DNA from: Porphyrobacter sp. ULC335
Lineage (GTDB): Bacteria; Pseudomonadota; Alphaproteobacteria; Sphingomonadales; Sphingomonadaceae
Direction of reading: 5' to 3'
Assembly (NCBI RefSeq): GCF_025917005.1
Contig: NZ_CP078091.1
Coordinates: 2,046,001 to 2,110,000, forward strand
DNA: 64,000 nt
The notes under the pieces were generated by a model. The model was not told the origin of the DNA. It was given only the letters and a program-made list of their open reading frames with translations, and ran no database searches. Both the position numbers and the translations under genes were made by a program. This document shows positions 10,826 to 60,857 of this stretch, in pieces; positions within the stretch are counted from its first letter, which is position 1, and the number at the start of each line of letters is the position of its first letter.

Positions 10826-10911
10826 GGACAGGTGGCCGAGTGGTTAAAGGCAGCAGACTGTAAATCTGCCCGCGCAAGCGTACGCTGGTTCGAATCCAGC
10901 CCTGTCCACCA
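10826..10911 (+). tRNA. tRNA-Tyr (GTA)
   Basis: Acceptor strands ggacagg (10826-10832) and cctgtcc (10901-10907) pair, followed by A and an encoded CCA. The anticodon GTA is at 10860-10862 in an actgtaaat loop context, and a long variable arm (cccgcgcaagcgtacg) marks it as class II, as expected for bacterial tRNA-Tyr. Its 3' end is the attachment site of the downstream integrative element, which restores the end of the gene exactly. Confidence 0.96.
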
Positions 10912-10912
10912 C
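10893..10912 (+). repeat. attL core, direct repeat with 18662-18681
   Basis: The 20-mer aatccagccctgtccaccac at the 3' end of tRNA-Tyr is repeated exactly at 18662-18681. Integration into tRNA 3' ends by tyrosine recombinases leaves such duplications. Confidence 0.9.
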
Positions 10913-10955
10913 ACCCTCCTAGGGTGCTGAAAAGCCTGAAAAACCACGCTTTATT

Positions 10956-10991
10956 CCTTCCGACTGCTACACAAAGTTGCTACACGGAAGG
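10956..10991 (+). promoter_or_regulatory. Integrase leader: arm-type site candidates and RBS-covering hairpin
   Basis: Two direct copies of tgctacac occur at 10965-10972 and 10978-10985; a third lies near the other element end at 18592-18599, the distribution expected for integrase arm-type sites. The pair is enclosed by an inverted repeat, ccttccg (10956-10962) and cggaagg (10985-10991). The right arm contains the probable Shine-Dalgarno sequence (ggaagg) of the integrase, so the hairpin could hide it. Function is inferred. Confidence 0.5.
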
Positions 10992-11001
10992 CATGCAAGA
11001 G

Positions 11002-12639
11002 ATGTTCAAGCTGTCCCGGCGGAAGGGGTCTGCGAAGTGGCAGGTCCGGAAGCGTTGGCCCAGTGACGTGGCGTCGGTTCTCAAGGGCGAGTTCAACAAA
11101 TCGACGGGTGAGGAAGATCGGAAGGCCGCCCAAGCGCAGCTTCCCTTCCTTGCCGCTGAGTACGAGCGGCAGGTGGCGGAAGCCCGGGCCAAGCTGGCAG
11201 AGGCCCCCCGGGTCGAGCTTTCCGAGGCAGAGGCCCACCGGATGGCTGCGAGCTTCTACCGCGATATGCTGCCCCGGTACGTCGTCACCAGACCCATCGA
11301 CCCCATCGACCACCAGCGGCTCCTAGCGGACACCCAAGAGCGCCTTGCGACCGCCCGCACTATGCTGGGCCGCAATGACTTCGCCCCGGTGCGCGCCGTT
11401 GCCCGGACCCTCACCCAGCAAGCGGGCCTGTCGCTCCCCGAGGATGCCCCGGCGTGGGAGTTCCTGCACCGGATGCTGATGCGCGCCTTTGTCGAGCTAC
11501 ACGAGGTCGCCGCCGCGAACCTTGCGGGCAACCCCGGGTACACCCCGAGCGACCCGGTGATCCGGGAAGTTCCCGCCGCGACTGCCCCCAGCCGCACCGT
11601 GGAGGCGCTTCTGGACGCCTATGAGGCCGACAAGGCCCCCGGCTGGAGCGACTCCACCAAGAAGGCGGTGAAGCCTGTCTTCCGGTTCATGCGGGACGTA
11701 TTCGGGGGCCGTGCCGTCGGCTCCATAACGCGGGAAGAGGCGCGGGAGGCGGTCAAGCTCCTGCAGGGCCTCCCGTTCGGCATGGGCAAGCGCACCGAGC
11801 TTGCGGGCCTCAAGGTGCCGGAAGCGATCAAGAAGGGGGCGCAGCTGGGCCTGCCCACCATCAAGCCCAAGACCATCAATGACGGGTACCTCCTGCACAT
11901 CGCGTCCCTGTTCAACTGGGCCCGCAAGGAACAGTGGGTCGCTGCCAATCCCTTTGAGGGTCTGTCGGTGTTTGATCCGGTGGACGATGCCGACCGCCGC
12001 GACCCGTTCACGGTCCCCCAGCTGCAAGCCCTTTTCACCTCGGGGCACTGGCAGGGCCCATGGCGGGACGGGAAGGGCAAGGCCGGGGACTTCTGGGTGC
12101 CGCTGCTTTGCCTGTTCCACGGCCTGCGGAACGGGGAAGCTGCGGGCCTGCGCGTGGAGGATATTGCAGAGGAGGGCGGTCACCCCGTTATCCGGCTGCA
12201 GCCCTACGACAACCGGACGCTCAAGACGAAGGACTCCCGGGGCACAATCGCGCTGCACCCCGAAATGATCCGGCTGGGCTTCCTGCGGTACGTCGAGAGC
12301 CGCAAGCAGGTTGGGGAGCAGCTGCTATTCCCCGAGGGCCTTGCGAACAGCCGGGGGCAAGTTGGGGCCAAGCTGGGCGAGCGTTTCAGCCTGCACGTGA
12401 AGCGGCTGGGGCTGGAGGGCCGCAAGCTGGGGATGCACTCATTCCGCCACTGCTTTGAGGATCGCCTTAGGGAAGCGGAGTTGCCCGAGCGTACCGCACT
12501 GGCGCTGGCGCGGCGGCGGGAGGCTGGGTCGAGCAAGAGCTACGGGGACGGCCTATCTGCGCGGCAAAAGGCGGAAGCGGTGGCGAAGATCGCCTATCCC
12601 GGTCTGGACCTGTCGCACCTGTACCCAGCCGCCGGGTAA
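11002..12639 (+). CDS. int: Tyrosine-type site-specific integrase
   Basis: This recombinase probably integrates and excises the element at tRNA-Tyr. The N-terminal half holds arm- and core-binding domains (FKLSRRKGSAKWQVRKRWP; a SAM-like domain around VEALLDAYEADKAPGWSDS). In the catalytic domain R376 lies in HGLRNGEAAGL, the HxxR motif is H479 and R482 in HSFRHCF, and the probable nucleophile is Y514 in SKSYGDG. The usual LGH motif is weak (LARRREAG). I chose ATG 11002 (545 aa) because ggaagg at 10986-10991 is 10 nt upstream; ATG 10993 is too close to it. The gene is the first one inside the left att site. Confidence 0.92.
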   Translation: MFKLSRRKGSAKWQVRKRWPSDVASVLKGEFNKSTGEEDRKAAQAQLPFLAAEYERQVAEARAKLAEAPRVELSEAEAHRMAASFYRDMLPRYVVTRPIDPIDHQRLLADTQERLATARTMLGRNDFAPVRAVARTLTQQAGLSLPEDAPAWEFLHRMLMRAFVELHEVAAANLAGNPGYTPSDPVIREVPAATAPSRTVEALLDAYEADKAPGWSDSTKKAVKPVFRFMRDVFGGRAVGSITREEAREAVKLLQGLPFGMGKRTELAGLKVPEAIKKGAQLGLPTIKPKTINDGYLLHIASLFNWARKEQWVAANPFEGLSVFDPVDDADRRDPFTVPQLQALFTSGHWQGPWRDGKGKAGDFWVPLLCLFHGLRNGEAAGLRVEDIAEEGGHPVIRLQPYDNRTLKTKDSRGTIALHPEMIRLGFLRYVESRKQVGEQLLFPEGLANSRGQVGAKLGERFSLHVKRLGLEGRKLGMHSFRHCFEDRLREAELPERTALALARRREAGSSKSYGDGLSARQKAEAVAKIAYPGLDLSHLYPAAG

Positions 12640-12651
12640 CAGCGGGTCGAT

Positions 12652-13080
12652 TAGCACACCCTTTTGAAGGGCGAACCTTGCCCCGGGCAACGCCCTGAAA
12701 ACCGCCTTCCCGGTGGCTTTCGGGAGCACCCCGGGTGCCCCGGGTGTCATCCTCCCGGATATGCGAGCGACCCGCCGGAAAGCCACCGTAACGCTGGCCT
12801 TCCCGGGGCTAGAAGGGCAGGCCAAATAGCCACCACTCTTGAGACGGGAACCGGGGCGGGCGAACTCAGGACTGGCAAAAAACCCTCACCCTTGAAGAGC
12901 GGAACGCCGATTACGCCTGTAGTCGAGTTAGGGCCCACTTTTGAAGAACGAACCGGGACGCGTGATGCGGGGCCGTCATCGGGCGTGGGCCAATTAGGCC
13001 GCAATCTTGAAGAGGGAGCCTTGCGCCGGGTCGCTTCGGAGCGGCCAATTCGTCAGCACCCTTGGATAGCGACCGCCCCA
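12652..13080 (+). repeat. Six degenerate direct repeats with TTGAAGAGCGAACC core
   Basis: Degenerate copies share a pattern close to ggccaattag, a few bases, then cactcttgaagagcgaacc. The TTGA (or TTGG) cores begin at 12664, 12839, 12892, 12941, 13007 and 13062, so the last five are 49-66 bp apart. No coding sequence is convincing here. The pattern resembles the multiple end repeats of IS21-family insertion sequences, but no transposase is present; an iteron-like protein-binding array is the alternative. Confidence 0.6.
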
Positions 13081-13354
13081 ATCCCTTTCACGTACGCGTA
13101 CACGTGCGCGCCCTTTAGGTACCTATAGGGGAACCCCCTCAACACCAACGCTACCACCAACAGCTGGTACCTTGCTGGTGCACTGTCAGTTCTACCCCCT
13201 CCACACCCTCCTCTCACCAACACCGGGTACCAGCTGGTGACCCGTAAGTAGGGGCTGGGGGCGGGGGTCGATATCTCGCACCTGTCGCCACCGACGGTGC
13301 CCCTCCAGTTCCCAAGTTTCTGTCGCGCTCCCTTTCTGGAGGTTGAGCGCACGG
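13081..13354 (+). other. Non-coding control region with palindromes
   Basis: No gene is apparent. The stretch contains the palindrome gtacgcgtac (near 13095), a CACGTG, and an inverted pair built on accaacagctggtacc (near 13157-13175) and ggtaccagctggtg (near 13228-13241). The base composition is C-rich on this strand. It lies between the repeat array and a long hairpin and could be an operator, origin or transfer site; nothing decides among these. Confidence 0.4.
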
Positions 13355-13409
13355 TGGACCCTGCCCTGTATGGCTGCTTTCGGTGCCATCGGGTGCAGGG
13401 CAGGGTCCA
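13355..13409 (+). repeat. Long two-step hairpin
   Basis: A perfect 14-bp inverted repeat, tggaccctgccctg (13355-13368) and its complement (13396-13409), encloses a second stem, atggc (13370-13374) with gccat (13385-13389). The structure could form as RNA or as a single-strand DNA cruciform. It is not followed by a T run, so it is not an ordinary terminator. Confidence 0.6.
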
Positions 13410-13504
13410 GAACCTCACCAGCCGCCACCGGCTCCACACCCGAAACCGAACCCCATCCATCCCTTCAATTCACCGGCGGTGCCCCTGCGGGCCCTGTCGG
13501 GCAC

Positions 13505-13530
13505 CCCCGCTTGCCGAGGCGGGGTCTTTT
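13505..13530 (+). terminator. Terminator-like hairpin upstream of the small-gene operon
   Basis: ccccgc (13505-13510) pairs with gcgggg (13519-13524) around an 8-nt loop, followed by tctttt. It lies 43 bp before the ATG at 13573, so it could act as an attenuator for the operon as well as ending upstream transcripts. Confidence 0.6.
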
Positions 13531-13572
13531 CCAACCGCTGGCAATCGGCCCCAGCAACCGAAAGGCTTCCAC

Positions 13573-14373
13573 ATGGAAGACACCAGCCCCGCCAGCGCCC
13601 GTCTGGCAGTGGACACCACCGGTTCCGACTTCACGGTTCCGAGCTATGACATCGCCCCCGAGGATCAAGCCCGGGCCCAAGAGCTCCTGTCGGCCTCCAA
13701 CGCGGACCCCAACGCCACCCCGAGCCCCGTAAAGCTCACCGGCGGCGGTGCGTTCAAGGCCCCCGAGCGTTTCACCCTGTCCATCCTGCCCCCGGACAAG
13801 CAGGGCCCCATCGCTGCGCAACTCGCCCAGGTACCGGCGCACCTGCGCGCCGAGCGGGAGCACGAGCTTGTCGTGGGCGCACTCAAGCAGAACAGCACCG
13901 CGCTGCGCATCAAGGCAGGCCCCGGCGAAGGGGCAAGCCCGCTCGAGCGTGAGCAGTTCGCCGTCGCCCGCGATATCGACGCGCTCGAGACCGAGGCACT
14001 CGATATCCAGCGCCAGCTTGCCGAGGTCCAAAAGTGGGTGCCGGTGTACAATGAGATCACCGGCGAACCCGTGATCGACCCTCGCACCGGGCAACAGCAG
14101 GTCAAGGCCGTGGAGATCATTCAAGGCGACCGCCGCAAGGCCCTTGAGGCCCGCGTCAATGAACTCGCGTACCGCGCCGACCTCCTGCGGGGGGTCGAAG
14201 GGGACCGGCGTATCCAGCGGGCTCTTGCCCAGACCATCGAACTCGAAAAGCAGCAGCGCCAGCGGCTGGCGGAGCGGGAAGAGGTCAAGCGGCGGGCCGA
14301 GGAAATCAGCCGCCAGAAGCGTATCGACAAGCAGGCCGAGACCCTGTCCCGGTTCAAGGACAACGCGCTTTGA
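13573..14373 (+). CDS. Hypothetical coiled-coil protein of the integrative element
   Basis: I do not recognise this 266-residue protein. The first 90 residues are Pro/Ala-rich with a FTLSILPPDKQGPIAAQL segment. From about residue 120 it is strongly helical and charged (ALETEALDIQRQLAEV; a Lys/Arg/Glu-rich C-terminus around EREEVKRRAEEISRQKRID), consistent with a coiled coil. It has no signal peptide or membrane segment. Start ATG 13573 opens the run of small genes and follows a terminator-like hairpin. Its size, helical content and position suggest a phage-like accessory or scaffold protein, but that is inference. The next tiny gene overlaps its stop. Confidence 0.7.
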   Translation: MEDTSPASARLAVDTTGSDFTVPSYDIAPEDQARAQELLSASNADPNATPSPVKLTGGGAFKAPERFTLSILPPDKQGPIAAQLAQVPAHLRAEREHELVVGALKQNSTALRIKAGPGEGASPLEREQFAVARDIDALETEALDIQRQLAEVQKWVPVYNEITGEPVIDPRTGQQQVKAVEIIQGDRRKALEARVNELAYRADLLRGVEGDRRIQRALAQTIELEKQQRQRLAEREEVKRRAEEISRQKRIDKQAETLSRFKDNAL

Positions 14374-14459
14374 CCACCATCGGGGCTGCCATGATCGGGG
14401 CGGGGATCGGGCTCTTGCTCGCCCCCGTCCGGGCTATCCTGCGGGTGCCCCGTGCGTAA
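14370..14459 (+). CDS. Small predicted membrane peptide (29 aa)
   Basis: A TTG start overlaps the stop of the upstream gene, with aagga 10 nt before it, and encodes 29 residues that are almost entirely one hydrophobic helix (IGAAMIGAGIGLLLAPVRAI) with a basic tail. The tight overlap on both sides and the element's compact layout support it; the short length keeps confidence low. It could be a holin-like or regulatory peptide; no function can be assigned. Confidence 0.4.
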   Translation: MTTIGAAMIGAGIGLLLAPVRAILRVPRA

Positions 14460-14613
14460 CGCGCCGCGCATCTGGCGGGGTGGTAGCAAGGGCCCCCGGC
14501 GCACCGCGCCCCACGTGCCCCCGCAGTGCCGTGAGGTTGCCGTGGAGGTCGCGGGCATGAGCCCGAGCCTACAGCGGTTCGACATTGTCGCAGACGAGCA
14601 CCAGCCCGAATGA
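14452..14613 (+). CDS. Small basic hypothetical protein (53 aa)
   Basis: A GTG start overlaps the end of the 29-residue frame by 8 nt, and the stop overlaps the next ATG (ATGA). The product has a very basic N-terminal half (RNAPRIWRGGSKGPRRT) and an acidic C-terminal end (FDIVADEHQPE). I do not recognise it. Support comes from overlapping start/stop signals typical of coupled phage genes, not from homology. Confidence 0.4.
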   Translation: MRNAPRIWRGGSKGPRRTAPHVPPQCREVAVEVAGMSPSLQRFDIVADEHQPE

Positions 14614-14789
14614 GCACCGGCCAAGACCACCAGCGCCTGTCGCTACGTGAAGCCATCGACGCCAAGTGCAGGGCTTGCATCTACGATTAGTCCGAGCCGG
14701 GTCGCTGGAGACAGCAGGTAGCCGCCTGCAGCGTCACCAGCTGCCCGCTTCACCCTGTCCGCCCGCTGCCGAGGCTGCGGGAAAACTAG
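14610..14789 (+). pseudogene. Small Cys-rich phage-type protein interrupted by an in-frame TAG
   Basis: From ATG 14610, which overlaps the previous stop as ATGA, the frame reads LSLREAIDAKCRACIYD, meets TAG at 14688-14690, and continues in the same frame with SEPGRWRQQVAACSVTSCPL and HPVRP to a second TAG at 14787-14789. Both halves match a small phage/prophage family with a CxxCIYD, then WRxQV, then CPLxPVRP pattern and four metal-binding Cys. The full product would be 58-59 residues. The amber codon falls between the two Cys pairs, so termination would destroy the site. This is either a nonsense mutation or a readthrough codon. Confidence 0.6.
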
Positions 14790-14801
14790 GTCGATAATCC
14801 C

Positions 14802-14919
14802 CCGGAAGGCCACCCAGACGGTGGCTTTCCGGAAGGCCGCTCGCGCTCCGGGATCAATCCCAGCCGACCACACCGACCACCACCCGAAAACCACTGAGAC
14901 GGTGGCTTTTATAGCCACC
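14802..14919 (+). repeat. Two hairpins built on a shared ggtggcttt sequence
   Basis: Stem 1 pairs ggaaggccacc (near 14803-14813) with ggtggctttcc (near 14821-14831). Stem 2 pairs ggtggct (14901-14907) with agccacc (14913-14919) just before the ribosome-binding site of the gene at 14935. The right arm of stem 1, acggtggctttccgg at 14818-14832, is also a perfect inverted copy of ccggaaagccaccgt at 12775-12789. Another ggtggctttcgg occurs near 12713. Confidence 0.55.
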
Positions 14920-14934
14920 AAATGGAGCACCCCC

Positions 14935-15318
14935 ATGTCCCAGACAAAGACCTGTAGCACCTGCAGGGAGACCAAGCCGGTCTCCGCGTTCTATCGCAAT
15001 GGCGGTGGAAAGCCCGGATATCGGACCCGCTGCAAGGGCTGCCTGAACGCGGCCCGCCGCAATGGCCCCAGCGCGGCCACCCGCATCATCAAGGAAATCG
15101 TGATGCACCACCACAACCCCGCGTTCCCCCTGAGCCCCGAGGCGGAGGCCGTGGTCTACACCAGCATGCCACTGCCCCCTGCCATCATCGCGCTGAGAGA
15201 GCGGCGCGAGCAGCGAGCGGAGAAGGAGAAGCTGCGGCGCGAACGGGCGTTCCGCGCAAAGTATCGGCAGTGCCCTGCCATGACCATCCCGGCCCACATG
15301 CGGGAGGCGGTGGTATGA
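14935..15318 (+). CDS. Small zinc-ribbon-like protein of the element
   Basis: This 127-residue protein has an N-terminal four-cysteine cluster (TCSTCRETKPVSAFYRN, then TRCKGCLNAARR), a treble-clef/zinc-ribbon pattern found in many phage proteins near HNH endonucleases; no HNH catalytic motif is visible. The C-terminal part is a basic helix (LRERREQRAEKEKLRRERAF). It may bind DNA or RNA. ATG 14935 has ggag 9 nt upstream and sits directly after a perfect 7-bp hairpin. Its stop overlaps the next start (ATGA at 15315). Confidence 0.65.
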   Translation: MSQTKTCSTCRETKPVSAFYRNGGGKPGYRTRCKGCLNAARRNGPSAATRIIKEIVMHHHNPAFPLSPEAEAVVYTSMPLPPAIIALRERREQRAEKEKLRRERAFRAKYRQCPAMTIPAHMREAVV

Positions 15319-15542
15319 GCGGCGCTGTCCGGACCTATCGTGGCCTCCACGGTGAGCCTATTCGGGTGCCCGCGGAGACCTTCGCGACCGTCCCCAAGCT
15401 CCACGGCGAGCCTCAGCCGTTCCCCTTCGCCCGCATGGCGGCCGCACTGGGGCCACTGCGCGATCGCTTCGCGCAGGCGGTCAACCGAGCGGGGCTTTTT
15501 GAAGAGGCGCTGGCGCGTGGCGATGTACGGAGCATGCAATGA
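15315..15542 (+). CDS. Hypothetical protein of the element (75 aa)
   Basis: ATG 15315 overlaps the upstream stop, so translation is probably coupled. The 75 residues begin MSGAVRTYRGLHGEPIRVP and end with a helical stretch (LRDRFAQAVNRAGLFEEALA). No known motif, signal peptide or membrane segment is seen. It is the last gene of the compact run; GC content drops directly after it. Confidence 0.5.
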   Translation: MSGAVRTYRGLHGEPIRVPAETFATVPKLHGEPQPFPFARMAAALGPLRDRFAQAVNRAGLFEEALARGDVRSMQ

Positions 15543-15684
15543 AACAAACGGTACGGCACACGTCCAAAGCCTCCCGCGACCACGAAGAGCTATTTGTTGA
15601 TGAAAATCAATTGGGTGCAACGCCCGCCTCTTGTGGAGGCTCCATCGTGACCTATACTCTTCAGAGATAGCTTGGAGTATCACC

Positions 15685-16035
15685 GTGCCGAACAAAGCAT
15701 ACTACATCACACCGATCGATTTCGGTTGGGAGTACCTCCCTTCCGTCCATGAGTTTGCCAACCGGATGGCGAAGCTTGACGTCGAAATCAAACTTGCCCG
15801 TCAACCCTACGGCGAGGCTCGTCTTGATAAGTTTCTTGCTGATTTCGCTAAGGCGCAAGAACTCGCCGATGAGGTTGGGTGGGAAGGCGATTTCCGTGGT
15901 GACCCGTGCGTGTTCTGCCTCCCCATCGAGAATGAGATCGTCTACGGCTTCGTTTGGAAGCAAGAGAACAACGGCGATACTCTGGTCATCACGCCCGAGC
16001 CGATGCCTTGGCTCGATCATCTGGTTTTAACCTGA
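15685..16035 (+). CDS. Hypothetical protein (116 aa)
   Basis: GTG 15685 has ggag at 15674-15677 in good register and gives a 116-residue protein starting MPNKAYYITPIDFGWEYLP. It is acidic and aromatic-rich, with two Cys in DPCVFC (a CxxF/C-like pair) and a C-terminal VWKQENNGDTLVITPEP region. There is no signal peptide. The frame continues upstream to ATG 15631, but that stretch lacks a ribosome-binding site. Its base use is closer to the KAP gene than to the small-gene run, suggesting it belongs to the cargo. I do not recognise a family. Confidence 0.6.
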   Translation: MPNKAYYITPIDFGWEYLPSVHEFANRMAKLDVEIKLARQPYGEARLDKFLADFAKAQELADEVGWEGDFRGDPCVFCLPIENEIVYGFVWKQENNGDTLVITPEPMPWLDHLVLT

Positions 16036-16251
16036 TCCTTCGGTGGCAGAGCGGCGGTGAGCCTCGGTGGCAGGAAGTGGCCGCTTTCACCTCAAAAATC
16101 TGAAGCGGCTAGCGTACGGAAGCGAAAGCCCCACTCCCCCCATGGGGGTCCCTAACGCCTCTCGTCGGTGCCTCGCGGAGTGCCTTCTCGCTCTTGTAGC
16201 GCGTGGGCACTCCGGTGCCTCACTATGGGGCGAGGATCTCTGCCCGCCCTA

Positions 16252-16369
16252 TGTCCGCTTGGGGTATACCTGCAGCGGACACGCTGTCCGGACACTTTCT
16301 CTGTCCGAATAGGGTTGACATAGGATTCTCCGGACAATAGATGGCGAGGCTCTACACCCTAATCGGACA
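16252..16369 (+). promoter_or_regulatory. Putative res site: array of TGTCCG half-sites plus resolvase promoter
   Basis: Half-sites tgtccg/cggaca occur at 16252, 16276, 16285, 16289, 16302, 16331 and 16364. Subsite I would be the 30-bp dyad 16252-16281, centred on ggtatacc; subsite II the 35-bp dyad 16302-16336; subsite III about 16345-16369, next to the gene. Sizes and order match Tn3-type res sites (about 28, 34 and 25 bp). A sigma70-like promoter lies inside (ttgaca at 16315-16320, weak -10 near 16338), so the resolvase probably represses itself. Arms 16301-16315 and 16356-16370 also match as an inverted repeat at 14 of 15 positions. Confidence 0.65.
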
Positions 16370-16379
16370 GGAGCACGTC

Positions 16380-16928
16380 ATGACCCAGACCATCGGATAC
16401 GCCCGCGTGAGCACCGAGGATCAAGATTGCAGCATCCAAGAGGAAGCCCTGCGGGCCGCCGGTGCCACCATCATCCGCAGTGAGCGCAAGAGCGGGACCA
16501 CCACCACCGGGCGCACCGAGCTTGCCACGGTGCTGGACTTCCTGCGGGAAGGGGACACGCTGCTTGTCACCCGCATTGACCGCCTTGCGCGGTCCCTCAT
16601 GGACCTTGAGGGGATCGTGGGGGAACTGCGGGCCAAGGGGGCGCACCTCAAGGCGACCGAACAACCCATCGACACCTCCACCCCGGCGGGCCGCGCCTTC
16701 CTGCAGATGCTGGGGGTCTTTGCCGAGTTCGAAACCGCCATCCGCCGGGAGCGGCAGCTGGAGGGGATCGCGAAGGCCAAGGCCAAGGGCGTGTACAAGG
16801 GCCGCAAGCCCAGCGTCCCGGTGGAGGAGGTGCGCCGCTTGAAGGCGGAGGGGTTGGGAGCGAGCGCGATTGCGGAGCGGCTGGGGATCGCCCGCAGCAG
16901 CGTATATGAGGCCCTCAAGGGAGCCTGA
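16380..16928 (+). CDS. Serine recombinase (resolvase/invertase)
   Basis: This 182-residue protein is a small serine recombinase. Nucleophile S11 is in GYARVSTEDQ, the conserved arginines are in LVTRIDRLARS (R65, R68, R71), the long E helix is around residues 100-130, and a C-terminal helix-turn-helix lies in GLGASAIAERLGIARSSVYE. Start ATG 16380 has aggag about 8 nt upstream and lies right beside a res-like array. It could resolve multimers of the excised circle or be left from a Tn3-type transposon; no transposase gene is near. The upstream in-frame ATG at 16341 would place the start inside the operator. Confidence 0.9.
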   Translation: MTQTIGYARVSTEDQDCSIQEEALRAAGATIIRSERKSGTTTTGRTELATVLDFLREGDTLLVTRIDRLARSLMDLEGIVGELRAKGAHLKATEQPIDTSTPAGRAFLQMLGVFAEFETAIRRERQLEGIAKAKAKGVYKGRKPSVPVEEVRRLKAEGLGASAIAERLGIARSSVYEALKGA

Positions 16929-16999
16929 AGCCCTGCTTTTTTCGGCGTAATCTACTGAACTGTCGACAAAAGGGTCGACTCTACGGCTCACCTACGACT

Positions 17000-17019
17000 A
17001 GTTTCTTCGGAAACTCTGT
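17000..17019 (+). terminator. UUCG-tetraloop hairpin before the KAP gene
   Basis: agtttc (17000-17005) and gaaact (17010-17015) close a ttcg tetraloop, followed by ctgtttt. It is 15-20 nt before the ATG at 17034, so it may end resolvase transcripts and keep the NTPase low in normal growth. A gtcgac repeat pair lies just upstream (near 16962 and 16974). Confidence 0.5.
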
Positions 17020-17033
17020 TTTGGAAGAGCGAT

Positions 17034-18524
17034 ATGGGCGACGTTACTGCTTGGGTCGGAGACAAACTCAACAGAAAGGCCGAGGCCGATGATTTACTGC
17101 AGTTCCTCCATGGGCGCCTGAAAGAGCGACGTGGTCGAGGCGTCGGGGCAAGCTACGTCGTGAACGTGGATTCAGGGTGGGGACAGGGGAAGACCTATTT
17201 TCTGTCGAACATCAGAAAGGACTTGGTTGGGCGAGGCGCGGCAGTTACGCTGATCGATGCTTGGGCGACTGACTTTTCCGATGATCCACTCACTGCGATC
17301 ATGAGTGCGGTTGACGCAGCACTAAAGCCTCACCTCAAGTCAAAAAAGCTCAAAGAGGCGTGGCGAGACGTGCTAAAGTCCGGGGGGTCTCTAGCTATTT
17401 CACTCACGAAGCACGTGAGTTCCAAGCTAGCCTCAAGGTATGTTGGAGAGTTCGGGGACGAACTGTTCGATGCCACCTTTGGAGAAGATTCCGATAAGTC
17501 ATCAGATGACAAAAAATCCGATGAGGATAAGCTTGGATTAGGCGGTGCCTCTGAGGAAGTCATCGATAAGCTTGCTGATAGTGCGCTTTCGCGACTTATA
17601 GAAACGTTCAGGAAGCAAGAGCGATCGATCGTCACCTTCAAGTCGCAGCTATCCAAAGTGGCTGAGGCAATCAACAAAGGTACCGACGATTTCACACCAA
17701 TATACATCCTTGTTGATGAATTAGATCGATGCAGGCCAACTTATGCGATCAGGCTGCTGGAGTCGGTCAAGCATCTCTTCAACACAGACGGCGTGGTCTT
17801 CATTATAGCAACAGACACTGAGCAACTCTCTGAGTCGATTAAGGCTGTCTACGGAGCCAACTTCGAAAGCGACCGCTACCTTAGGCGGTTTTTTGACAGG
17901 ACCTATAGATTCAGAGAGCCATCGCTTGAAGAGTTCGTGGGTTATCTCCTTGATAGATCGTCAATACCTTTGGATCGGCTCGGTTGCCCGCGCGGCTTAA
18001 GTCCTCAGAAAATGGCAGAGATAATATTCAGAGATTTCGGTTCTTCTCTGAGAGACGTAGAGCAATGCTTTGACATGCTCCAGACTTTCTCGACGATGTG
18101 GAATCATAAGATCCCGATTGAGTTGGGATTAGCTCTGACTTTAATTTGTCTCTATCACTCGAATCGTATTGAGGAATACAAGTGGCTTAGTGGACAGCCG
18201 ACTTCGCTTGCAATGGCATCAGTGTTCAAGCGCCCATCAGTACTGCTTCGGAACATCGTCGGAGGCTACAACGAACCCCGCCGCGAAATCACGTCATCCA
18301 CCGCCGATCTCTTAAGTGCCTATTCCGATCTGCGGACGACGTCCTTGATTCAACTAGTCGAAAAACAGTCGCCCGGCCACCCGGCCGGGCAGTACGTCAG
18401 AGAAGTGATCGCCAATGAGTTAGCGGTCCTTCACGGTAACTCATACCAGTCTGACAAACCGCCATACTCAGTCGTGCGCGAGTACCACCGGTACATCGAA
18501 CTAGCAGAACGCCTAGCGGAGTGA
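17034..18524 (+). CDS. KAP family P-loop NTPase, candidate anti-phage cargo
   Basis: Length is 496 aa. Walker A is SGWGQGKT at residues 47-54 and Walker B is YILVDELDRCRP at 224-235, the exact KAP form; VVFIIATDTEQL and the RYLRRFFDRTYRF segment also fit the family. The membrane insertions found in many KAP proteins are missing; an acidic low-complexity stretch (about 151-168) lies there instead, so it is probably soluble. KAP proteins include PifA of plasmid F and QatA of the Qat defence system; no partner genes lie beside this one. Codon use is much less GC-rich than the host. It is the last gene before attR, a typical cargo position. The defence role is inferred. Confidence 0.85.
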   Translation: MGDVTAWVGDKLNRKAEADDLLQFLHGRLKERRGRGVGASYVVNVDSGWGQGKTYFLSNIRKDLVGRGAAVTLIDAWATDFSDDPLTAIMSAVDAALKPHLKSKKLKEAWRDVLKSGGSLAISLTKHVSSKLASRYVGEFGDELFDATFGEDSDKSSDDKKSDEDKLGLGGASEEVIDKLADSALSRLIETFRKQERSIVTFKSQLSKVAEAINKGTDDFTPIYILVDELDRCRPTYAIRLLESVKHLFNTDGVVFIIATDTEQLSESIKAVYGANFESDRYLRRFFDRTYRFREPSLEEFVGYLLDRSSIPLDRLGCPRGLSPQKMAEIIFRDFGSSLRDVEQCFDMLQTFSTMWNHKIPIELGLALTLICLYHSNRIEEYKWLSGQPTSLAMASVFKRPSVLLRNIVGGYNEPRREITSSTADLLSAYSDLRTTSLIQLVEKQSPGHPAGQYVREVIANELAVLHGNSYQSDKPPYSVVREYHRYIELAERLAE

Positions 18525-18591
18525 TGACAGCCAGAGGTGGCGTTCTACGGTTAGATCCGATGGCTATAACCCTTGCGCCTCGACACAGAAC

Positions 18592-18599
18592 TGCTACAC
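18592..18599 (+). promoter_or_regulatory. Right-end tgctacac, integrase arm-site candidate
   Basis: This 8-mer, within actgctacacaac, repeats the pair found at 10965-10985 next to the integrase. It lies 63 bp inside attR. The sequence between the KAP stop and attR has no gene. Confidence 0.4.
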
Positions 18600-18661
18600 A
18601 ACTGCTCGCAGACGAAGTGACTAAGCAACTGTTTTTCAATGCTTTGGGTGGGGATTCTAGC

Positions 18662-18681
18662 AATCCAGCCCTGTCCACCAC
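18662..18681 (+). repeat. attR core, direct repeat with 10893-10912
   Basis: An exact 20-bp copy of the tRNA-Tyr 3' end, not preceded by the rest of a tRNA. It marks the right boundary of the element. Confidence 0.9.
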
Positions 18682-18702
18682 TTCCATTTTTCATTTGCCG
18701 GA

Positions 18703-18718
18703 TGTTCCACGTGAAACA
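18703..18718 (+). promoter_or_regulatory. parS-like ParB binding site 1
   Basis: tgttccacgtgaaaca matches the bacterial parS consensus tgtttcacgtgaaaca at 15 of 16 positions. It is outside the element, 22 bp past attR. A second site is at 60468. ParB spreads from such sites for chromosome segregation. Confidence 0.75.
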
Positions 18719-18735: not shown

Positions 18736-18792
18736 TTAAACGCGTCTGGAGGGGGTCTAGAAGGGGGCTAACCGGCGTCTAAACGCGTCTCT
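18736..18792 (+). repeat. Helically phased CTAR/CTGG repeat beside parS site 1
   Basis: Units ttaa, ctgg, ctag, ctaa, ctaa and ctct begin at 18736, 18746, 18757, 18768, 18779 and 18789, that is, every 10 or 11 bp and therefore on one face of the helix. Most are preceded by G-rich sequence (cgcgtctgg, gggggtctag). The segment taaacgcgtct occurs twice (18737-18747, 18780-18790). An array of the same type follows the other parS site. Confidence 0.65.
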
Positions 18793-60046: not shown

Positions 60047-60454
60047 ATGGCCTACTGGCTGATGAAATCCGAACCCTTCAAGTACAGCTGGGACCACCTC
60101 GTCGCCGAGGGTGAGGGGACGTGGGACGGTGTGCGTAACTATCTGGCGCGCAACAATCTTCAGGCCATGCAGGTGGGCGACGAGGCGTTTTTCTACCACT
60201 CGCGCGAGGGTCTGGAGATTGTCGGCATTTGCACGGTCAGCGTGACAGGAATCGGCGATCCCACCGACGAGACCGGCAAGTGGGCCGCGGTGAAGGTGAA
60301 GCCCAAGACCAAGTTCGCTCACCCTGTCACGCTCGCCGCGATCAAGGCCGAGCCGCGGCTGGCCGAGATGCAGCTGGTCCGCCTGTCGCGCCTGTCGGTG
60401 TGCGGAGTCACGCCGGACGAGTGGCAGGTGATCTGCGAGATGGCCAAGGGCTGA
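60047..60454 (+). CDS. EVE domain protein
   Basis: This 135-residue protein, MAYWLMKSEPFKYSWDHLV and onward, is a standalone EVE domain of the PUA-like fold, which binds modified bases such as 5-methylcytosine derivatives in DNA or RNA. GTWDGVRNYLARNNLQAM and FFYHS form the binding pocket signature. Standalone bacterial EVE proteins are often conserved core genes; other EVE proteins act in restriction. ATG 60047 has gggag 11 nt upstream. A parS-like site begins 14 bp after its stop. Confidence 0.9.
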   Translation: MAYWLMKSEPFKYSWDHLVAEGEGTWDGVRNYLARNNLQAMQVGDEAFFYHSREGLEIVGICTVSVTGIGDPTDETGKWAAVKVKPKTKFAHPVTLAAIKAEPRLAEMQLVRLSRLSVCGVTPDEWQVICEMAKG

Positions 60455-60467
60455 CCCGCAACCGCGA

Positions 60468-60483
60468 TGTTTCACGCGAAACA
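60468..60483 (+). promoter_or_regulatory. parS-like ParB binding site 2
   Basis: tgtttcacgcgaaaca differs from the parS consensus by one base (c for t at the ninth position). The arms extend symmetrically to cgatgtttc and gaaacatcg. It is intergenic, directly after the EVE gene. Confidence 0.72.
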
Positions 60484-60488
60484 TCGGC

Positions 60489-60567
60489 CTAAACGGGGTC
60501 TAGAGGGGGTCTAGGCGGGGTCTGGACCGCGCTGGAACCCTCTGGCACCGGGCTAGGCGGTGCCTGA
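60489..60567 (+). repeat. Helically phased CTAG/CTGG repeat beside parS site 2
   Basis: Units ctaa, ctag, ctag, ctgg, ctgg, ctgg, ctag and ctga begin at 60489, 60500, 60511, 60522, 60532, 60542, 60553 and 60564: steps of 11, 11, 11, 10, 10, 11 and 11 bp. The first units are embedded in ggggtctag. There is no gene here. The array matches the one after parS site 1 in unit, phase, order and orientation. Confidence 0.68.
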
Positions 60568-60686: not shown

Positions 60687-60857
60687 ATGGGTGAATTCAC
60701 CGACAAGGCCAAGGGTGCTGCCAAGGAGCTCAAGGGCGAAATCAAGCAGCATTCGCGCGATCCCGAGACCCGCGCCGAAGGCCGCGCCGACAAGGTCGAT
60801 GGCAAGATCGACAAGGCCAAGGGCAGCATCAAGGGCGCGCTTGGCGACCATATCTGA
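60687..60857 (+). CDS. CsbD family stress protein
   Basis: This 56-residue hydrophilic protein has the CsbD repeat (GEFTDKAKGAAKELKGEIK; then DKVDGKIDKAKGSIKG), probably disordered to helical. CsbD-like proteins are among the most strongly induced general-stress products in alphaproteobacteria; biochemical role unknown. gggagg lies 6 nt before ATG 60687. An EcfG-like promoter and a leader hairpin lie upstream, and a strong terminator follows at 60879. Confidence 0.88.
   Translation: MGEFTDKAKGAAKELKGEIKQHSRDPETRAEGRADKVDGKIDKAKGSIKGALGDHI

Follow-up and report, generated by a model that had tools for sequence, protein, structure and literature searches.

Position 60468 of the window, the whole stretch of 64,000 nucleotides from Porphyrobacter sp. 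ULC335 that was analysed, holds a parS-like box followed by a one-sided comb of short units spaced about one helical turn apart. The question raised by this locus is why a sequence of the type read by ParB should stand at this place, and what the comb beside it might do. parS normally marks the origin end of a chromosome; here this rule is challenged by about fifty copies which are spread chromosome-wide and are usually combed. What is new is that a box of parS type stands outside its canonical place and bears a phased, hitherto undescribed extension on one side.

The element at 60468 and its copies in the genome

The features of the window are collected in Table 1. The eight CTRR units of the comb start at 60489, 60500, 60511, 60522, 60532, 60542, 60553 and 60564, giving steps of 11, 11, 11, 10, 10, 11 and 11 bp, and the second to fourth units are the three of GGGGTCTR form. 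These positions and steps exactly reproduce the eight-unit array that the earlier note had described directly after a 15/16 parS match. No CTRR chain of more than three units arose in 200 first-order Markov windows, compared with eight units in the real comb, and the 64-kb window contains two parS matches at up to three mismatches versus 0.06 expected. The stop codon of the EVE-domain gene lies 13 bp before the box; the CsbD-like gene has the same direction and starts 159 bp past the last strong comb unit.

Table 1. Predicted elements and neighbouring features in the window (positions count from the first base of the window)
Feature	Position	Strand	Basis
Intact tRNA-Tyr	10826-10911		
Weak integrase match	10924-12639		Pfam Phage_integrase 4.3e-5, under its cut-off
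Second parS-like box (predicted), TGTTCCACGTGAAACA	18703..18718	+	parS match in window scan
Comb of second element, five YTRR units, steps 10, 11, 11, 11	18736..18782	+	
EVE-domain protein gene, flanking	60047..60454	+	Pfam EVE 4e-46; codon-bias gene call
parS-like ParB box (predicted), TGTTTCACGCGAAACA, 15/16	60468..60483	+	one mismatch to TGTTTCACGTGAAACA
Phased comb, eight CTRR units	60489..60567	+	Markov windows reach at most 3 units
CsbD-like gene past the comb	60687..60857	+	Pfam CsbD 1.6e-6, 28.3 bits, curated cut-off of 40 not reached

The earlier comparison of the two copies also holds: the array at 60489 exceeds that at 18703 in length and regularity. The neighbourhood of this second element includes an integrative island in tRNA-Tyr, at window positions 10826-18690, which holds resolvase and KAP NTPase genes and at whose far end, at 18662, the 20-bp 3' end of the tRNA is repeated. 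In Erythrobacter sp. WG (L216) box and comb follow directly after the tRNA end, so that in ULC335 the island sits between tRNA-Tyr and the 18.7-kb element.

Genome-wide, 57 parS-like sites were found at up to two mismatches and none with the reversed pattern, while comb pairs (GGGGTCTR twice, 11 bp apart, at most one mismatch) numbered 65 per strand compared with 0 and 2 for the reversed control. Setting apart the six sites beside parB leaves 51 scattered sites, whose boxes match parS at 0-2 mismatches; 49 of these were analysed, two 2-mismatch sites being left out. Of the 49 scattered sites, 44 have two or more comb units no further than 120 bp away, with more on one side, as against 36 of 6000 random genome positions with at least two units. 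At least three units on one side were present at 40/49, and a stricter definition (two exact GGGGTCT/GGGGTCA) retained 39/49. Four of the 44 (L014, L023, L061, L062) have weak combs only. The remaining five sites (L001, L003, L008, L011, L026) each carry, to one side, a third ParB half-site; at two of them, L001 and L003, a comb lies on the opposite side as well, at distances of about 70 and 110 bp. Neither comb nor third half-site was found at parB-proximal sites (0/6 in this genome, 0/45 in relatives).

A survey of CTRR chains across 1.2 Mb of this genome, sampled as 60 stretches of 20 kb at even distances, recovered 17 chains of at least four units versus none in a Markov control of equal length. 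The comb at 60489 is the longest of the 17, and 11 of them have a parS-like box (at most two mismatches) within 90 bp upstream. The earlier view of parS-type box and phased array as one element is supported. Thirteen arrays of this genome (L043-L047, L050, L051, L053-L057, L059) have no box within two mismatches, that of L050 being accompanied by a box with four. Several of these boxless combs stand at the same position as in relatives; L045, for example, corresponds to a box with comb in the relative G148 (L238).

Chromosome position and helical register

The genome is a single closed contig of 3,618,402 bases (3.62 Mb), of which the window covers bases 2,046,001-2,110,000. parB was located at 574.1-574.6 kb (TIGR00180, 4.3e-58) with a ParA-type ATPase match at 575 kb, and six parS without array lie beside it at 575.7-580.4 kb. 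GC skew, sampled in 60 stretches of 20 kb, changes from negative to positive across a broad zone at 240-660 kb and from positive to negative near 2.5 Mb. About 1.5 Mb separate the window from parB and about 0.4 Mb from the inferred terminus, and the distance to parB together with the skew switches places it in the terminus half. The earlier note had taken the window to be origin-proximal and had proposed mapping it against parAB and the GC-skew switch of a closed genome; so mapped, it lies far from parB and nearer the terminus, and the origin-proximal location is rejected. The two sites 42 kb apart, which had been read as a sign of the origin, merely reflect the genome-wide density of one element per 58 kb. 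Moving outward along the arms from the parB cluster, quarter by quarter, the 49 scattered boxes number 8, 12, 16 and 13, and all 62 elements 11, 16, 19 and 16; elements are not rarer near the terminus. The 49 scattered boxes were no more regularly spaced than random (p 0.21), and the spacing of all 62 elements was slightly regular (p 0.01).

With respect to register, 104 elements with box and comb were used, 44 from this genome and 60 from relatives among the matches listed. CTRR peaks after the box at 16/17, 27/28, 38/39, 49/50 and 60/61 bp, the series continuing to about 92 bp. In 97 of the 104 elements the position of the first full unit is 10, 0 or 1 modulo 11; a period of 10.7 fits first units best, and one of 10.95 fits all units. 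This phase register puts box and comb on one face of the helix. The box stands on the 5' side of the GGGGTCT strand: relatives' arrays among the matches listed had a box within 110 bp upstream in 61 of 81 cases and downstream in none of 81.

The third half-site was scanned at 189 scattered sites (378 flanks) and 51 parB-proximal sites (102 flanks). GAACA, the outer part of a ParB half-site, occurs exactly 11 bp past the box's own half-site in 31 of 378 scattered flanks and in 0 of 102 parB-proximal flanks, never on both sides of one box at the 189 scattered sites; at any other offset it averages about 0.02 per set. The occurrences comprised 7/49 sites in this genome, 4/91 in the named relatives, 3/13 in G124, 10/14 in G126 and 3/6 in G142, with 1/2, 1/2 and 2/2 in the small sets of G155, G174 and G229. 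None was seen in G148 (0/6), G190 (0/2) or G195 (0/2). In G409, which belongs to another alphaproteobacterial family, GAACA or GAACG occupies this place in 8/10 scattered and 0/8 clustered sites, the cluster of eight being defined by clustering alone. Taken together, the half-sites of the clade and of G409 suggest that a one-sided, one-turn extension marks scattered parS in two lineages.

Relatives and the predicted reader of the box

Among the matches listed, an array of the same kind was found in Erythrobacter colymbi, E. dokdonensis, E. sanguineus and Porphyrobacter sp. AAP60. The relatives' loci L103-L222, among the matches listed, were chosen by exact comb match, so that comb frequency among them is biased. 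The polarity, gene-context and register sets used L103-L182 only, the latter two minus L115, L138 and L154, and the lag-signal set used L103-L222 minus L115, L138, L154, L199, L200 and L210. Among the 119 genomes of the family, only that of ULC335 has more than eight boxes at up to one mismatch (51). The 114 genomes of the genus are bimodal: 47 have 9-86 sites, 67 have 0-4 and none has 5-8. Exact comb pairs occur in 29 of the 114, in some once only, and 27 of these 29 have at least nine boxes, the exceptions being G148 and G200. In a tree of 29 sampled ParB sequences all 20 bearers fall on one side of a fully supported branch.

In 289 alphaproteobacterial genomes TGTTYCACGTGRAACA occurs at least 13 times only in ULC335 (25), G423 (79), G409 (18) and G400 (13). 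G409 (L331, L318, L324, L326-L330) represents a third lineage, with ten parS over a 2.75-Mb contig plus the cluster of eight, and at least eight of its sites are scattered as in ULC335. G423 (L311 and others) is an unrelated alphaproteobacterium with 79 boxes, many of them in tandem 35-37 bp apart in AT-rich surroundings, and looks like parS multiplication of another kind. Binatota (L115), Streptomyces (L138), Actinophytocola (L154) and Acidobacteria (L210) also contain GGGGTCT direct repeats, at intervals of about 11 bp and with no parS box, which are probably plain tandem repeats.

From species to species the comb letters vary. A CAAAG-like comb is present at some G124 sites (L308, L305, L223, L228) and a CAACG-like comb at a few G126 sites (L234, L233, L231), in each case with a different phase to the box. 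The sets comprised 14 sites for G126, 13 for G124, six for G142, and two each for G155, G174, G190, G195 and G229. The lag-11 signal was +0.14 (t 11) at the 49 sites of ULC335, +0.06 (t 2.8) at the 13 sites of G124, where lag 12 was equally significant, and +0.03 (t 2.0) at the 14 sites of G126, where lags 12, 14 and 15 were as strong. Since these rival lags equal lag 11, the G124 and G126 combs are read from single clear sites. No lag-11 signal was obtained in G142 (+0.01, six sites) or at parB-proximal sites (-0.02 at the six of ULC335, 0.00 at 45 others). The drift of the comb between species may reflect a drifting sequence-specific binder or a structural role.

The relative G148 bears on which protein reads the box. 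It has 55 boxes of Y/R form, and only three of its sites lie within one mismatch of parS, so that at least 52 of the 55 boxes are TGTTCCACGTGGAACA. Among these are seven of the eight boxes beside parB, which have the same changed form as the scattered boxes. Of the 55, 20 were fetched, four chosen by comb; of the other 16, 14 have a comb. Of the 20, 18 carry a comb that is still of GGGGTCT type, and in 16 of these 18 the position of the first unit is 10, 0 or 1 modulo 11. At alignment position 171, within the recognition region, the ParB of G148 carries H; the residue there is M in the other 19 bearers and Q in most non-bearers. A box change common to both kinds of site points to one reader, presumably ParB, and one protein reading both kinds would be the simplest account.

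TIGR00180 matches in ULC335 are limited to parB and a 612-aa ParB-like protein of plasmid/ICE type at 1.02 Mb. The latter lies in L069 (1018-1026 kb) beside a frame that we take to resemble ArdC, and this locus is probably a plasmid/ICE remnant. In Caulobacter, ParB recruits MipZ, and a full-length MipZ match is present in ULC335 at 267.4 kb (1e-110); as the MipZ profile also matches in each of the 14 control genomes and three more times in this genome, only the full-length match counts.

Predicted function and competing explanations

We consider it probable that the element is one of many dispersed sites for ParB binding, extended along the helix on one side. On the evidence of the sequences, ParB very likely reads the box, and it is reasonably likely that the extension modifies ParB at the scattered sites. 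ParB would bind the box of a scattered element, and the third half-site, in this clade grown into a long comb, would dock a second ParB or a cooperative DNA-binding partner on the same helix face beside ParB. Docking might fix ParB in place or block its sliding on the comb side, and ParB so held or blocked would keep the scattered sites from acting as competing centromeres. The outcome would be a ParB platform throughout the nucleoid, serving chromosome folding and/or division placement, and not extra centromeres; that such a platform is the purpose is a tentative proposal. Equally tentative is the broader suggestion that some Alphaproteobacteria turned the origin centromere into a chromosome-wide system, with boxes about every 60 kb, each with a helix-phased extension on one side that makes a clamp-loading centromere a fixed ParB station. 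The extension would be a third half-site or, in Erythrobacter/Porphyrobacter, an evolving 11-bp comb with its own cooperative binder, and could serve, for example, Noc-like occlusion or folding by multiplying the DNA site and not duplicating the protein.

The gene context has to be weighed against this reading. Gene calls were made with the author's codon-bias caller; 130 elements were found, of which 14 at locus ends and 24 without box were set aside, and the 92 placed comprise 38 from ULC335 and 54 from relatives among the matches listed, three of them overlapping a predicted gene. These box-bearing elements lie between 53 convergent, 35 tandem and 4 divergent gene pairs, compared with 11, 46 and 20 for 77 ordinary gaps of at least 80 bp from about 157 kb of the ULC335 genome only (Fisher, convergent enriched, p 5e-9; divergent depleted, p 9e-5). 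In ULC335 alone 22/38 are convergent. The elements thus favour gene 3' ends, mostly between convergent genes, and a role in transcription would also be compatible with so strong an orientation. They might then be 3'-end transcription elements, the C-rich strand of the comb serving as a Rho-utilisation site or the box and flanks as a terminator hairpin, with the likeness to parS secondary. Tandem contexts favour the gene running into the C-rich strand (24 to 11, p 0.04), and perfect flanking arms of at least five pairs occur in 9/104 elements versus about 1.4 in shuffles. A C-rich, G-poor transcript holds for genes facing the comb, the favoured layout, but not at the 60468 element, where both flanking genes run along the G-rich strand. 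The hairpin from extended arms is weak when partners are shuffled, pairing position by position being clearly above shuffles at just 1 of 12 positions, and a rut site or terminator needs neither a parS core nor a fixed helical register. We regard this explanation as improbable.

Curved DNA or a G-quadruplex beside parS, formed by phased G-tracts and flexible steps with no specific comb binder, is somewhat easier to entertain, though still unlikely. The period is one helical turn, the letters vary by species while a period of about 11 is visible at single sites, and 72/104 combs contain a canonical G-quadruplex motif. However, this motif is present in 0/7 of the CAAAG/CAACG-type sites checked, where the comb is not C-rich either, so that Rho and quadruplex suit the combs of ULC335 and not these; outer units retain phased CTRR without a G-run, and a quadruplex requires no register to parS. 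An extragenic repeat (REP/MITE-like or selfish) that has spread with parS aboard by chance would account for the many intergenic copies and for box and comb also occurring separately, yet it is very unlikely. It is weakened by positions common to species, judged by eye (L045~L178~L238, L047~L160, L009~L235~L256~L298, L034~L247~L300), at which box or comb may be absent; the comb varies in unit number and sequence, and no outer boundary was seen by eye. That a Noc-like second ParB paralogue and not ParB reads the scattered sites would agree with a chromosome-wide dispersal typical of Noc sites (PMC7333895, available portion), but is hardly credible: the only other TIGR00180 match is of plasmid/ICE type, scattered and parB-proximal boxes are identical in sequence and change together in G148, and the finding above that elements are not rarer near the terminus also speaks against it.

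Returning to the dispersed ParB-binding site, one of its nearest known counterparts is the parS of ParABS. Like it, the box is the 16-bp palindrome TGTTTCACGTGAAACA (type TGTTNCACGTGAAACA) or one mismatch from it, parAB is present, and an array-less parS cluster lies beside parB. Unlike it, this genome has about 50 copies chromosome-wide, which stand at gene 3' ends and each have an 11-bp extension on one side, and the origin-domain location of canonical parS does not hold for the scattered boxes. According to the available portions of two papers, the vast majority of parS lie in the origin domain, with a highest count of 20-23 near ori (PMC7333895, PMC7022226). The Noc-binding sites of Firmicutes are similar in that many ParB-box-like sites are dispersed over each chromosome. 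They differ in that ULC335 has no Noc paralogue by TIGR00180, that the box is parS itself and that the terminus region is included. The Noc box, which we take to be TATTTCCCGGGAAATA, differs from parS, whereas the scattered boxes here stay parS-type. Plasmid partition systems have iterons of about 11 bp (ParR/parC), and P1 parS has two box types. Here too direct repeats one turn apart (period 10.7-10.95 in our elements) stand beside or form a partition site, but on plasmids they have their own binders, and here dozens of chromosomal copies lie on a chromosomal ParB box. Pseudomonas aeruginosa ParB binds half-parS sites (PMC7022226, in the portion available), which are likewise ParB half-sites away from ori; as described there they are single half-sites with narrow peaks, whereas here a full parS is joined by a third half-site or comb at a fixed 11 bp. 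The literature covered, with most subscription papers outside its scope, gave no report of scattered parS in Erythrobacter/Porphyrobacter or of a phased array beside parS.

The clade is a natural case in which a genome can have as many as 86 sites; where placed, these extend over the entire chromosome, and each bears an extension lacking at parB-proximal sites. Three questions thereby become testable: what limits where ParB loads, whether a parS can be switched by DNA in cis from loader to fixed site or back, and by what route ParB could acquire a nucleoid-wide function. In the available parts of the sources, both Caulobacter and P. aeruginosa tolerate extra parS mainly when these lie no more than about 500-650 kb from the native cluster (PMC7333895, PMC5815017), and ectopic parS at mid-arm in Caulobacter gave longer cells and abnormal MipZ foci while ectopic parS near ter did little harm (PMC5815017). 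These effects in Caulobacter indicate that dispersal in the present clade should matter but need not be lethal.
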